Positions 54,142 through 58,057 of a stretch of 64,000 nt of DNA are shown piece after piece. A model generated the notes under the pieces. It searched no databases and was not told the origin of the DNA. It saw only the letters and a list, made by a program, of their open reading frames with translations. The stretch covers positions 1 to 64,000 of the forward strand of contig CANLUL010000002.1 of assembly GCA_947494305.1 (NCBI GenBank), written 5' to 3'. The position numbers and the translations under genes were made by a program. The DNA is from an uncultured Sphingomonadaceae bacterium (GTDB taxonomy: Bacteria > Pseudomonadota > Alphaproteobacteria > Sphingomonadales > Sphingomonadaceae). Within the stretch, counting starts at the first letter, position 1. Each line of letters begins with the position of its first letter.

Positions 54142-54168
54142 TTAGCACTCACTCCTTTCGAGTGCTAA
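54142..54168 (-). promoter_or_regulatory. CIRCE operator (HrcA binding site)
   Basis: TTAGCACTC, nine spacer bases and GAGTGCTAA match the CIRCE consensus without mismatch, 82 nt before the groES start. HrcA, not encoded in this window, represses chaperonin genes through this element. Confidence 0.98.
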
Positions 54169-54288: not shown

Positions 54289-54314
54289 GTAACGACATCT
54301 CCGACTCCGGCGAA
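54289..54314 (+). promoter_or_regulatory. Candidate ECF (SigF-type) promoter of the buf operon
   Basis: GTAACG, 16 nt and CGAA lie about 65 nt before the bufA start. An AAC-containing -35 with a CG-containing -10 at this spacing is the ECF form, and it is close to the GTAACC...CGAA motif I recall for Caulobacter SigF. The matching sigma gene lies in the same operon, so the promoter would be autoregulated. Confidence 0.65.
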
Positions 54315-54378
54315 TGGCTTGATGAACCACTTTGAGCGGTTCTCCCTTATTCCCCAATTTCCTAGAGAGGAAAAATTC

Positions 54379-54672
54379 ATGTCTTCATTTGTTAAATCTG
54401 CCGCTGCTGCTGCCGTATTGGCTTCCGCTGCTACCATGACTCTTACCGCTACTGCTGCTGAAGCAGCTGGTGCAAAAGAAAAATGCTTCGGCGTTGCTTT
54501 GGCCGGCAAAAATGACTGCGCTGCAGGTCCAGGTACGAGCTGCTCCGGTACGTCGACCATCAATTATCAGGGCAACGCTTGGAAATATGTATCCAAAGGC
54601 AGCTGCACTAAAATTGGCGGTTCACTTACAGCTAAAAAAGGCAACAAAAAACCCGTTCCACAACGCGGCTAA
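54379..54672 (+). CDS. bufA1: BufA1-type bufferin precursor (DUF2282)
   Basis: 97-aa exported precursor. A Sec signal of about 29 residues (hydrophobic Ala-rich, ending TAAEA) is followed by a DUF2282 core with four cysteines, C36 (EKCFGVA), C47 (KNDCAAG), C55 (SCSG) and C76 (KGSCTKIGG). In known bufferins, the BufB/BufC pair converts such cysteines to thiooxazole-type groups that bind copper in the periplasm; applying this here rests on family and gene context. The ATG at 54379 follows GAGAGGA at 8 nt. First gene of the six-gene operon and divergent from groES. Confidence 0.93.
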
Positions 54673-54690
54673 TTGCGCTAGTTTTTGCGG

Positions 54691-55605
54691 ATGAACAACA
54701 GCTCTGATCCTCATGTTTCGGAAAATCATGCTATGCCGTACTCCCTCCCTCCATCAGGCGGCATAGGTCTAAAGTCAGTCCATTATGAAAATGTGCTGGC
54801 GGAAGGTGACAATCTGAAACACCCTTCTTGGGTTGAGGTTCATCCGCAGAATTACTTCGGTGATGGCGGGCCATCGCATAGATGGCTAACCGCTATTGCC
54901 GAAGTTTATCCTTTGAGTTTTCACAGCGTTGGTCTTTCGCTTGGAAGCGCCGATGGCCTGAATGAATATGAACTTGAAAAGATAGCGGAGCTTTGTGATC
55001 GCTATCAACCGGCCATGGTCTCTGACCATTTGAGCTGGAGCGGCAATGCACATGACCGCTACCCCGATCTGCTCCCCATTCCCTATACACAGGAATCGCT
55101 CAATCATTTCGCCGCGCAAATCGGGCGGGTGCAAGATAGATTGAAACGCCCCATCCTCATCGAAAACCCCTCACGTTATCTGTCGTATAAAGACGATCAG
55201 ATGAGCGAGACCGATTTCATTCATGCACTCTGCAAACAAGCCGGGTGCGGATTGCTGTTCGATGTCAACAATGTCGAGGTGACAGCCACCAACGTCCATC
55301 TGGATATGGAGGCGTATATAGATGCGATTGATCCGAACATAGTTGGTGAAATGCATCTGGCAGGGCATGTGCGAGAAGAACATGATGACGGGCCATTGTT
55401 AATTGATGATCATGGCTCAATTGTTTCCGATGTCACCTGGGATCTTTACAACCGCTTCATTGAACGCGCTGGCCCGAAACCAACGCTGATCGAATGGGAT
55501 ACTGATATTCCAGAATATGATGTGTTGATGACCGAGGTTGGCAAGGTTGAAGCCGTAATCGAAAACCACAATCAGGAAACACCGCGCCATGCCCTCGCTA
55601 GCTGA
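54691..55605 (+). CDS. bufB1: BufB: DUF692 multinuclear iron oxidase (MNIO)
   Basis: 304-aa TIM-barrel enzyme of the MbnB/DUF692 family that uses iron and O2 to modify peptide cysteines. Characteristic strands are WVEVHPQNYFGDGG near residue 46, MVSDHLSWSG near 109, RPILIENPSRYL near 151, LLFDVNNVEVTA near 186, and EMHLAGH near 218, which together provide the His/Asp/Glu iron ligands. The start is ATG 54691, with ATG 54733 as an alternative; neither has a strong ribosome site, so coupling to bufA (18-nt gap) is likely. It overlaps bufC by 17 nt. Confidence 0.94.
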   Translation: MNNSSDPHVSENHAMPYSLPPSGGIGLKSVHYENVLAEGDNLKHPSWVEVHPQNYFGDGGPSHRWLTAIAEVYPLSFHSVGLSLGSADGLNEYELEKIAELCDRYQPAMVSDHLSWSGNAHDRYPDLLPIPYTQESLNHFAAQIGRVQDRLKRPILIENPSRYLSYKDDQMSETDFIHALCKQAGCGLLFDVNNVEVTATNVHLDMEAYIDAIDPNIVGEMHLAGHVREEHDDGPLLIDDHGSIVSDVTWDLYNRFIERAGPKPTLIEWDTDIPEYDVLMTEVGKVEAVIENHNQETPRHALAS

Positions 55606-56353
55606 GAGCCAATCGCGTTTCATTGCGTGTCTGCAAAAAGGCCCGGACCATTTGCCGGTTGAGATGTTCACCGAGAGTGCCAATCGTGCGCTACTTGGTA
55701 TGAAAGCGCACGCCAATACCATCTCCCACGCACGCCTGGTTGCACTCGAAAATGCGTATCCCAAATTGCACGAGCATATGGGCCACGAGGAATTTCACTC
55801 CGTTTCGCGCGATTATATCGAACAAGATCACATATTGCTCTGCGATATGAACACCATTGCGGAGGATTTTTCCCGATTTCTCGAACAAAACAATATTGGT
55901 GCTACCGAAGTTGATTTGGCTAAAGTGGAATGGGCTTGGCTCGAGAGTTATCGCGCAGCTGAAGCTGAACCAGTTATGCTCGAAGATATCGTGACACTTG
56001 ATGAAGATGGCCTTCTAGCCTTACCCATTGATCGACATCCTGCCGTACAATTGATTCAACTATCAGGGAAATTATCACCCGAACTTGCTGAACTAGGCGA
56101 GGAAACCCCGCACGCCTTGCTAGTAGCCCGCCCCGAAGAGCAGGTATTATTCCACCCGCTATCGAAATTAGAGCATCAGATAGCCAAAAAAATTGCAAAT
56201 ATTTCCTGTATGGGTAACCTTTTGGAGAAAGCCATCGAATTGGTTGGTAAGAACGCAAATGCTGAAGGGGACGCTGAACAGGCAATGCCTCATCTGATCA
56301 GGTTGATCCAGGCGGGCGCGTTGATGAAAAAACAAGATTTACAGGGAAGTTAA
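55589..56353 (+). CDS. bufC1: BufC: DUF2063 MNIO partner protein
   Basis: 254-aa soluble protein. The N-terminal DUF2063 domain (residues 1-95) has the pattern FIACLQKG...ANRALLGMKAHANTISHARLVALENAYPKL, and a mixed C-terminal domain follows. In MNIO systems this partner presents the precursor peptide to the oxidase. The gene starts inside the end of bufB (17-nt overlap), a strong sign of co-translation and a stoichiometric complex. Confidence 0.93.
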   Translation: MPSLAESQSRFIACLQKGPDHLPVEMFTESANRALLGMKAHANTISHARLVALENAYPKLHEHMGHEEFHSVSRDYIEQDHILLCDMNTIAEDFSRFLEQNNIGATEVDLAKVEWAWLESYRAAEAEPVMLEDIVTLDEDGLLALPIDRHPAVQLIQLSGKLSPELAELGEETPHALLVARPEEQVLFHPLSKLEHQIAKKIANISCMGNLLEKAIELVGKNANAEGDAEQAMPHLIRLIQAGALMKKQDLQGS

Positions 56354-56354
56354 T

Positions 56355-56813
56355 ATGTCCAATCTGATACAAAATACATTTGAGAAAATCAGCGGTCCGG
56401 TGCCAGAATCTATTGCACTTTTACTAGCACGGCTTGGCCTTGGCGGCGTATTTTATCGTTCGGCCACCAGTCGGATGGAAGAAGGCAGTTGGACGCAATT
56501 GTCCGAAAACGCGATCTACCAGTTTTCTGAAGAACCCTTTAACCAGGTACCGGTTATCAATGGTGAATTTGGTGCCTATTTTACCAGTTATACCGAACTG
56601 TTGATCGGCATAGCCTTGATGTTGGGTATCGCGACACGTTTCAGTGCATTTGCCGTATTGGGCATGGCTGCGGTCATTCAGATTTTCGTCTTTCCAAGTT
56701 TTGCGCATCTATGGGCCACGGTTACGGTTTGGGTCGCACTCGCGTTGATCTTAATCATTCGCGGCGGCGGCATGCTCTCGATCGACAAGTTAATCGGGCA
56801 TAAACTCGGTTAA
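56355..56813 (+). CDS. DoxX family membrane protein of the buf operon
   Basis: 152-aa protein with four hydrophobic helices. It opens with a short polar tail, then PESIALLLARLGLGGVFYRSA, and has the DoxX-type block TSYTELLIGIALMLGIATRFSAFAVLGMA (residues about 74-102). DoxX members are frequent fourth genes in bufferin operons. A redox or quinol-related role is proposed for the family but is unproven. It starts one base after the bufC stop. Confidence 0.92.
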   Translation: MSNLIQNTFEKISGPVPESIALLLARLGLGGVFYRSATSRMEEGSWTQLSENAIYQFSEEPFNQVPVINGEFGAYFTSYTELLIGIALMLGIATRFSAFAVLGMAAVIQIFVFPSFAHLWATVTVWVALALILIIRGGGMLSIDKLIGHKLG

Positions 56814-56836
56814 TCGGCAGGGCTGGGAGAGCATAG

Positions 56837-57361
56837 ATGATCGCCAATGAAGAAACCATGCGGCACCTGATGGTGAAAGCGCAAGGTGGCGACAAGCAAT
56901 GCTATGCCAGCTTGCTGGCCGAATGCGAGAAATGGCTTCGGCGTTACTACGCGCGCAAGATTAACCCATCTGCAATTGATGATCTGGTACAAGAAACCTT
57001 GATTTCGTTGCACCGCAAACGCGCCAGTTATGATCCGACAAAAGCGTTTTTACCCTGGCTCGCCGCCATTGGCCGCTATCGCTGGATCGACAGCTTGCGC
57101 AAAATTTATCGCCATGATCATGACGAGCTTTACGAAGAAATGGTCGCCGATCCCCAGGAAGAAAGCGTGTCTGCAAAGGTCAGCCTGGAACGTCTTTTGG
57201 GTATGATCCCGGAAAAACAGGCGGAAGTGATCAGCATGGTAAAAATAGAAGGCCTCAGCATTGCCGAGGCATCCGAACAAACAGGCCAATCAGAATCATT
57301 GGTCAAAGTGAATATCCATCGGGGGCTCAAGAAAATGAGCGCCTTAATCGAGAGTGAGTAG
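56837..57361 (+). CDS. sigF: ECF sigma factor (SigF-like) of the buf operon
   Basis: 174-aa RNA polymerase sigma subunit. Region 2 covers about residues 20-85 (DDLVQETLISLHRKRASYD, FLPWLAAIGRYRWIDSLRK). Region 4 covers 118-170 (LLGMIPEKQAEVISMVKIEG, then ASEQTGQSESLVKVNIHRG). It is followed one base later by the NrsF-type anti-sigma gene, the same arrangement as Caulobacter sigF-nrsF, which responds to heavy-metal stress. It probably transcribes its own operon from the GTAACG...CGAA promoter. Confidence 0.94.
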   Translation: MIANEETMRHLMVKAQGGDKQCYASLLAECEKWLRRYYARKINPSAIDDLVQETLISLHRKRASYDPTKAFLPWLAAIGRYRWIDSLRKIYRHDHDELYEEMVADPQEESVSAKVSLERLLGMIPEKQAEVISMVKIEGLSIAEASEQTGQSESLVKVNIHRGLKKMSALIESE

Positions 57362-57362
57362 A

Positions 57363-58004
57363 ATGAGTAATCTATCTAAAAGCCTGATTGACGGCTTGGT
57401 CGATGAGCTGGAACCGGTAAAAACAATCAAGCCGACTGCAGGTTTGCTGGTCGCAGGCGGACTGACGCTTACGGCGATGGCCGCTGTTGCGACCGCTTTG
57501 GGAGTTCGTAACGATCTGGCCATGGGCATGGCAGACGAAATGTTCTTCCTACGCAGTGGCATATTGCTGATGCTGGGGTTGGCCACGGCTTTTGCTGCAG
57601 TGAACCTTGCACGGCCCGGTGTTGGCAATCTTAATCGCGGTTGGATTTGGGCATTGGCGACCGCTTCGCTTTTCCCGATTACAGCCGTGATTATGAGTCT
57701 TATCAATACACCACCGGTCGAGGCTCTTCGCCCAACCCAAGGCATGCTCTGCTTGGCGGTCAGTATGATTTCCGCGCTTGGTATCGGCAGCGGCCTGACC
57801 ATGTGGCTGCGCCAAGGCGCCCCAACCTCACCCGAGCGCGCCGGCTGGTTGGTTGGTATTGCCTCGGGAGCGCTCGGAGCGGCAGCCTATAATATCTACT
57901 GCCCATTTAATGACATATACTATATCGGCCTTTGGTTCACATTGCCGGTGTTAGCCAGCGCAATCATTGGGCGCCTGGTTGTCCCAAAACTGATCCGCTG
58001 GTAA
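57363..58004 (+). CDS. nrsF: NrsF-like membrane anti-sigma factor (DUF1109)
   Basis: 213-aa polytopic protein with six hydrophobic helices after a cytoplasmic tail of about 25 residues (SLIDGLVDELEPVKTIKP). It has the DUF1109 pattern RPTQGMLCLAVSMISALG and AAYNIYCPFNDIYYIGLWF. Two cysteines, in MLCLAV near 129 and IYCPFND near 180, correspond to the metal-sensing positions reported for Caulobacter NrsF. It would hold SigF at the membrane until metal or thiol stress releases it. The ATG at 57363 lies one base past the sigF stop. A terminator follows. Confidence 0.94.
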   Translation: MSNLSKSLIDGLVDELEPVKTIKPTAGLLVAGGLTLTAMAAVATALGVRNDLAMGMADEMFFLRSGILLMLGLATAFAAVNLARPGVGNLNRGWIWALATASLFPITAVIMSLINTPPVEALRPTQGMLCLAVSMISALGIGSGLTMWLRQGAPTSPERAGWLVGIASGALGAAAYNIYCPFNDIYYIGLWFTLPVLASAIIGRLVVPKLIRW

Positions 58005-58025
58005 TTTACAAAAAAATATCCATAT

Positions 58026-58057
58026 AAACGGCAGGTTGCAATCAACCTGCCGTTTTT
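58026..58057 (+). terminator. Terminator of the buf-sigF-nrsF operon
   Basis: AAACGGCAGGTTG, a short CAAT loop and CAACCTGCCGTTT form a long perfect stem followed by a T run, 22 nt past the nrsF stop. It isolates the operon from sppA. Confidence 0.95.

Follow-up and report, generated by a model that had tools for sequence, protein, structure and literature searches.

A bufferin operon of an uncultured Sphingomonadaceae bacterium with a probable SigF promoter inside bufC and a candidate lipoprotein bufferin in trans

Introduction

Does a complete bufferin operon act alone, or is it one part of a wider regulon? This question is raised by the operon bufA-bufB-bufC-doxX-sigF-nrsF, located in a stretch of 64,000 nucleotides (hereafter the window; contig CANLUL010000002.1, positions 1 to 64,000, assembly GCA_947494305.1) from an uncultured Sphingomonadaceae bacterium. 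The operon encodes a four-cysteine DUF2282 precursor, a multinuclear non-heme iron-dependent oxidase (MNIO), its DUF2063 partner, a DoxX protein, an extracytoplasmic function (ECF) sigma factor and an anti-sigma factor. The original prediction had interpreted these genes as a single transcriptional unit and as a stand-alone, self-regulated metal-stress module. Our results suggest that this interpretation was right in kind but too narrow in scope. Indeed, a conserved SigF box within the coding sequence of bufC is probably a promoter for doxX-sigF-nrsF, and a second precursor gene, encoding a putative lipoprotein and located elsewhere in the genome, lies behind a box of the same type.

Taken alone, the operon is one more member of a large known family. 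Antoine et al. (PMC12452194) define the core genes of Buf1 clusters as precursor, MNIO, DUF2063 and DoxX, include sigma factor and NrsF genes in these clusters and give the two central cysteines as the modified positions; for a Caulobacter bufferin, the paper reports that the central cysteines become thiooxazoles and that the peptide binds copper. It also proposes lipidation for 16% of Buf2, mentions several precursors with one MNIO and leaves open whether a single MNIO pair acts on several precursors or spares some. A subset of bufferins and oxazolins is reported to carry lipobox signals, and lipidation has been demonstrated for DybA and NedA (PMC12636315). The SigF box, the SigF regulon and the NrsF cysteines of Caulobacter were characterized by Kohler et al. 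(PMC3511200), who found that mutating C131/C181 of NrsF raises SigF-dependent expression and releases SigF, and that SigF controls a PF00174 protein. Induction of this regulon by copper, cadmium or chromate is known (PMC3511200, PMC8224329); for copper, a sigF::Tn5 mutant was also found to be sensitive (PMC8224329). Because both the Caulobacter regulon and Buf1 clusters that include a sigma factor and NrsF are in print, the gene set of the operon is of an already known kind (Buf1 with sigF-nrsF). Lipidated bufferins and several precursors per MNIO have likewise already been proposed in print.

A SigF box inside bufC

The SigF box was found twice in the window, against 0.16 matches expected, once before bufA and once within bufC. 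We searched for the internal box in the 1.3 kb that follow the BufB match in 195 loci (L044-L158 and L162-L241), which exclude the window and yielded 145 distinct bufB genes, identical bufB stretches being counted once and two truncated ones dropped. SigF and DoxX downstream of bufB were sought by tblastn with the proteins of the window, so diverged SigF or DoxX proteins may escape detection. The box was present in 47 of the 50 bufB genes with sigF downstream but in only 3 of the 95 without it, and the reversed pattern occurred in this region of none of the 145 genes. The three sigF-bearing genes without an exact box are two of genus g20, which present a GTAACT variant, and L173, which presents no box. 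In the family sample described below, an exact internal box was identified for 29 of 30 precursor entries of bufB...sigF operons; some operons contribute more than one entry, and a box was accepted at any position of the segment, so that two g20 entries were scored for boxes located 3' of sigF.

Several observations call for caution in reading these counts. Operons without sigF belong largely to other lineages or to other MNIO subtypes, and ancestry therefore confounds the contrast; near-identical relatives also remain in the counts. Moreover, three loci of genus g2 (L063 in G001, L065 and L076) keep the internal box with no sigF detected after doxX. These loci suggest that the box may mainly serve doxX and not the autoregulation of sigF. 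The location of the box, immediately 5' of doxX, agrees with this alternative, and in L063 the gene directly after doxX is sppA-like, as is the gene after nrsF in the window. However, 31 bufB genes that have DoxX but no SigF downstream have no box, which indicates that the box goes with sigF, although many of these genes are from other lineages. We consider a role restricted to doxX to be unlikely, although it deserves real weight.

A putative lipoprotein bufferin and other candidate targets elsewhere in the genome

In a scan of the whole genome (3.35 Mb, with the window on contig 2), we found a single MNIO and a single NrsF, along with two DUF2282 genes. Of the latter, the one outside the operon is on contig 3, divergent from the presumed tgt gene and without an adjacent MNIO; the MNIO was found on another contig, and the two genes do not share a cluster. 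The encoded protein has a lipobox (LSAC, assigned by pattern) and an acidic linker, and its DUF2282 core (PF10048, 57.7 bits) contains four cysteines, as is expected of a RiPP-lipoprotein, i.e., a lipoprotein that is also a ribosomally synthesized and post-translationally modified peptide. Its core is identical to that of BufA at 32 of the first 46 aligned columns, and its best matches include Sphingomonadales and Sphingomonadaceae records, with Parasphingorhabdus flavimaris at 69%, which points to a Parasphingorhabdus-like sphingomonad as the likely source. The two precursors differ in the net charge of their mature parts, BufA being cationic (about +9) and the lipoprotein anionic (about -15). 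Across the family sample, the charge from the core to the C-terminus has a median of +6.5 in 94 non-lipoprotein copies (-18 to 22) versus -5 in 34 lipoprotein copies (-10 to +1). A third match to the lipoprotein profile in this genome, L286 (E 6e-4), covers profile positions 1-50 alone; it was judged to be a signal-peptide match and set aside.

Two precursors and one MNIO match were found in each of the 12 sampled genomes of the genus, which bears on the question of shared maturation raised by Antoine et al. (PMC12452194). In these 12 genomes, the SigF box is exact before the operon in 11 and before the lipoprotein gene in 8. Further genomes of the genus entered only the search for a gene pair encoding a cytochrome b561 and a molybdo-oxidoreductase (PF00174, Oxidored_molyb). 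This pair is preceded by an exact SigF box in 21 of 22 genus loci, the one of this genome included; L304, which has no match to the anchor motif, was left out of this count, and some of the genomes are fragmented. No match to the pair was found in one of the 24 genus genomes (G400, 67% complete). More broadly, an exact SigF box lies 5' of 60 of the 94 non-lipoprotein DUF2282 genes of the family sample, where shuffled sequences lead one to expect 0.1. Promoters of the GTAACC-N16-CGAA form are thus found 5' of genes that SigF may control. The notion of a stand-alone module is not supported, since such boxes also precede the unlinked lipoprotein bufferin gene and the molybdo-oxidoreductase pair, in a genome where a single MNIO and a single NrsF were found.

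Control in trans has points against it. Of the 12 genus genomes, 4 have an altered box at the lipoprotein gene: one carries a single mismatch, another carries three mismatches, and the other two have lost one base. Genome-wide, there are 38 matches to the SigF box versus 89 to the reversed pattern, and isolated matches mean little. Finally, 20 of the 28 unlinked lipoprotein copies of the family have no exact box (all copies of genera g2, g20, g65 and g83, and two of g1), so support for control in trans is confined to g1, g34 and g38. Other box matches in this genome, before radical SAM, DUF2147 and outer-membrane-like protein genes, are not claimed as targets; the radical SAM gene of L289 (G000:C4:112500-117500) presents an exact SigF-type box immediately 5'.

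Central cysteines and the presence of an MNIO

The family sample comprises 249 genomes, 87 with DUF2282 and 95 with MNIO. Of its 131 DUF2282 copies, 36 are lipoprotein-like: 28 unlinked to an MNIO (i.e., with no same-strand BufB within 3.5 kb), 6 beside an MNIO and 2 in genus g48. The 28 unlinked copies come from 23 genomes in 7 genera, and a divergent MNIO within 4 kb is listed for none of the lipoprotein copies. A lipobox-like ALGC in genome G232 resembles an ordinary signal peptide and was dropped from these counts.

Four cysteines are present in 127 of the 131 copies, including every lipoprotein copy from an MNIO-positive genome, both the 28 unlinked ones and the 6 beside an MNIO. Both copies of g48 (L128 and L129, in G047 and G122) are missing the two central cysteines and keep the outer ones, and no MNIO match was found in either of the two genomes sampled from this genus. 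The exceptions in MNIO-positive genomes are one copy with an early stop and one without the last cysteine only. Extending the search to 397 genomes, we found five with a lipoprotein-profile match but no MNIO match. Among these, G367 carries a decayed copy with a stop. In contrast, G380 (500 contigs, 94% complete) has its intact four-cysteine copy on a short contig and was not counted as an MNIO loss, and the match in G128 is spurious (six stops, E 5e-4) and was ignored. Loss of the MNIO thus appears to be accompanied by loss of the central cysteines or by gene decay; since there are only two such events, this comparison is suggestive and not proof.

Indeed, the comparison amounts to one genus with two genomes plus one pseudogene, which counsels caution. 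A protein tree, built on few columns, also does not join the tgt-linked copies as one clade, and the orthology of these copies is therefore unsupported as a single clade. Alternatively, the lipoprotein bufferin might bind metal or act without being modified. The lipoprotein of g48 adjoins tgt and persists without its central cysteines where no MNIO was found, which indicates that the protein can be retained without modification. However, the four cysteines of all 34 lipoprotein copies in MNIO-positive genomes argue against this possibility, as does the decayed copy in the MNIO-less g38 genome, and we consider it unlikely.

The arrangement of these genes varies across the family. We had entertained the idea that many Sphingomonadaceae loci with DUF2282-doxX-sigF-nrsF lack an MNIO; it was dropped, as 45 DUF2282 copies have a divergent MNIO adjacent. 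In these 45 copies from 24 genera (within L044-L158), DUF2282-doxX(-sigF-nrsF) stands back to back with the divergent MNIO, which often sits behind a six-cysteine Buf2-like precursor. This layout suggests that a single MNIO may serve both Buf1 and Buf2. In one locus (L055, G160:C1:710971-711943), three tandem DUF2282 domains precede bufB, and a single long frame encodes two of these. No relative was found in a scan of viral contigs.

Codon usage at the internal box

The internal box overlaps coding sequence, and its conservation can be compared with that of the encoded residues. Of 28 bufC genes, two have no alignable letters at the box, leaving 26, of which 24 keep the box exactly. The first box codon is GGT, TGT, CGT or AGT (Gly, Cys, Arg or Ser), its GT being constant in 26 of 26 genes. 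Asn within the box is always encoded by AAC, although AAT is slightly more common elsewhere in these bufC genes (85 vs 77), and Glu is always GAA, although GAG represents 39% of the Glu codons elsewhere in these genes. The codon that precedes this Glu always ends in C, yet its residue varies widely (only 33% conserved). Third-base conservation at the four box codons ranges from 0.96 to 1.0, compared with a median of 0.48 over 240 bufC columns. Four other columns also reach at least 0.96, but residues there are at least 89% conserved, whereas two of the box codons encode residues conserved at just 63% and 33%. The probability of this codon pattern was estimated at about 1e-17 over ten genera; the estimate assumes that genera are independent and serves only as a guide.

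Because residues change while the promoter letters stay constant, the box constitutes a clear promoter-like element overlapping the coding sequence. We conclude from these alignments that this DNA has been kept as a SigF site, and the box is probably a promoter for doxX-sigF-nrsF, at which a transcript would start. The view that the genes form one transcriptional unit is accordingly incomplete, owing to the conserved box inside bufC.

A more economical alternative is that the locus is an ordinary Buf1 operon and nothing else, with boxes that arose by chance or as codon artefacts and a lipoprotein DUF2282 gene that is an unmodified relic. The gene set itself has already been described, Antoine et al. 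(PMC12452194) allow orphan precursors to be unmodified, and the SigF box shows no genome-wide enrichment. However, this alternative does not readily accommodate a box conserved across changing codons, its contrasting frequency with and without sigF, its retention in nearly all loci 5' of the b561/molybdo-oxidoreductase pair, or the four cysteines of all 28 unlinked lipoprotein copies, every one from an MNIO-positive genome; we regard it as quite unlikely. Lastly, it is very improbable that the constraint on this site comes from a protein motif of BufC (GNLL..A.E) and not from a promoter, since, although the site is in frame and its N, L and E residues are well conserved, the letters of the box stay fixed where the first residue and the one before Glu vary and where synonymous codons for Asn and Glu were available.

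Layout of the operon and its flanks

The operon spans positions 54289-58055 of the window, and all six reading frames were found on the plus strand in the order and with the spacing that had been predicted (Table 1). BufA and bufB are 18 nt apart, bufB and bufC overlap by 17 nt, and the remaining genes follow one another at distances of 1, 23 and 1 nt. The predicted ECF-type promoter and strong terminator do bracket the genes, although the hairpin of the latter was not picked up by a simple terminator scan.

Table 1. Coordinates of the operon features in the window, and of a candidate SigF target elsewhere in the genome
Feature	Position	Strand	Description
SigF-type promoter box GTAACG-N16-CGAA	54289..54314	+	start 90 nt 5' of bufA ATG
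bufA1 (bufA)	54379..54672	+	97 aa DUF2282 bufferin precursor; PF10048 81.9 bits
bufB	54691..55605	+	MNIO (DUF692) bufferin maturase; PF05114 (MbnB_TglH_ChrH) 318.6 bits, NF050167 343.5
bufC	55589..56353	+	DUF2063 partner protein; PF09836 36.9 bits (cut-off 27.2)
Second SigF box GTAACC-N16-CGAA within bufC coding sequence	56214..56239	+	115 nt 5' of doxX ATG
doxX	56355..56813	+	DoxX membrane protein; PF07681 44.5 bits
sigF	56837..57361	+	ECF sigma factor; PF04542 (Sigma70_r2) 44.9, PF08281 (Sigma70_r4_2) 51.7 bits
nrsF	57363..58004	+	anti-sigma factor, Cys130 + Cys180; PF06532 (NrsF) 146.7 bits
Intrinsic terminator: 13-bp hairpin + T run	58026..58055	+	-20.7 kcal/mol, z -6.3
Cytochrome b561/Oxidored_molyb pair, own genome	L287, G000:C1:1314500-1320500		SigF box upstream

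In a Pfam search, all six genes exceeded the curated cut-offs, and the DUF2282, DUF692, DUF2063 and NrsF assignments were confirmed (PF06532 is the former DUF1109). The gene order bufA-bufB-bufC-doxX, with a DUF2063 partner and DoxX, is that of a Buf1 cluster. BufA carries its four cysteines at the predicted positions 36, 47, 55 and 76 and a Sec signal peptide, judged by inspection, as do Buf1 precursors; its mature part measures 68 aa if cleavage follows residue 29. Against the NCBIfam model Cu_RiPP_BufA2 it scored 29.4, under the cut-off of 60, and it is not classified as BufA2. BufB exceeds the cut-off of 310 of the NCBIfam model MNIO_BufB (NF050167). Its iron ligands were read from sequence alignments: E158, D191, N194, H222, D239, H241 and E268 align to those of TglH (ligand list from PMC10880893), and H78 and H113 were assigned by motif alone. 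NrsF, whose gene adjoins that of the ECF sigma factor, has exactly two cysteines, at 130 and 180, which match C131/C181 of Caulobacter in position. One score speaks against a full equivalence: NrsF reached 88.9 against the cut-off of 300 of the NCBIfam equivalog AntiSigF_NrsF, so it belongs to the Pfam family but not to the NCBI equivalog. Overall, the domains, iron ligands, NrsF cysteines and SigF box bear out the prediction of a self-regulated Buf1 bufferin operon.

An exact inverted repeat (TTAGCACTC-N9-GAGTGCTAA) lies upstream of the operon at 54142-54168, upstream of a minus-strand groES; it is the only match in the window, with 0 expected, and has what we take to be the form of the CIRCE/HrcA operator. 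The gene names tgt, sppA and groES and the operator name CIRCE are labels that we presume to apply here.

Proposed mechanism

We consider the following explanation likely as a whole. By analogy with Caulobacter, a metal, most likely excess copper, would act on the two conserved cysteines of NrsF and thereby free SigF. SigF would then start transcripts from two boxes, the one before bufA and the one within bufC, the latter giving an additional doxX-sigF-nrsF message. Such a message would partly uncouple the feedback from bufABC, and the internal box thus predicts that the dosage of SigF, NrsF and DoxX is set apart from that of the peptide genes. In trans, SigF would drive the single-gene lipoprotein bufferin beside tgt and the cytochrome b561/molybdo-oxidoreductase pair. 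BufB, the sole MNIO found, would act with BufC to oxidize the central cysteine pair of each precursor before Sec export, the products being probably thiooxazoles that bind copper as reported for the Caulobacter bufferin. One bufferin would then be soluble in the periplasm and the other anchored by a lipid.

Two patterns are consistent with this scheme: the two precursors of the 12 genus genomes, each with one MNIO, mostly have the same promoter box, and without an MNIO either both central cysteines are absent or the gene has decayed. The more specific proposal is that a single SigF-NrsF switch, sustaining itself through a promoter in the frame of bufC whose letters selection would have preserved as the amino acids changed, commands bufferins of two compartments, one cationic and soluble and the other anionic and lipid-anchored, both matured by a single BufBC. 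For this combination we regard the case for and against as evenly balanced.

Comparison with known systems

The operon shares with the Buf1 clusters of Antoine et al. (PMC12452194) its DUF2282, MNIO, DUF2063, DoxX, sigma factor and NrsF genes and the four cysteines of its precursor. In contrast, the sections of that paper that were consulted mention no lipoprotein Buf1, no SigF box shared by unlinked precursors and no box in bufC. In the mostly open-access articles and passages that we consulted, we likewise found neither a bufC box nor a lipoprotein Buf1 that is unlinked to the MNIO and has the SigF box in common with the operon.

The closest parallel is the SigF regulon of Caulobacter, which comprises the bufferin operon CC3254-3257, sigF-nrsF (CC3253-3252), CC2907-2905 and CC2748 (PMC3511200, PMC8224329). 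Both systems have the six gene families, the GTAACC-N16-CGAA box and an NrsF with two cysteines, and in both the known or presumed SigF targets include a further bufferin locus in trans and an oxidoreductase of PF00174. They differ in three respects. In Caulobacter, sigF-nrsF is set apart from the bufferin operon and has a promoter of its own, whereas here these genes end the bufferin operon and a box lies in bufC. The second locus of Caulobacter has its own DUF692 and DUF2063 genes, whereas here it is a lone lipoprotein gene. Finally, the partner of the oxidoreductase is here a cytochrome b561, unlike in Caulobacter; the b561 pair may replace the MsrPQ pair of the Caulobacter regulon.

Bufferins have also been placed among the captophorins, a group of 5-thiooxazole metallophores, by the authors of PMC13097082. 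Captophorins involve an MNIO with a DUF2063-type partner, as encoded here, and the present system resembles them in its genes. The RiPP-lipoproteins DybA and NedA (PMC12636315) are MNIO substrates with a lipobox, which the unlinked bufferin resembles. However, DybA and NedA were mined as MNIO-associated genes, whereas the lipoprotein bufferin described here is unlinked to its candidate MNIO and is tied to it by a promoter box.

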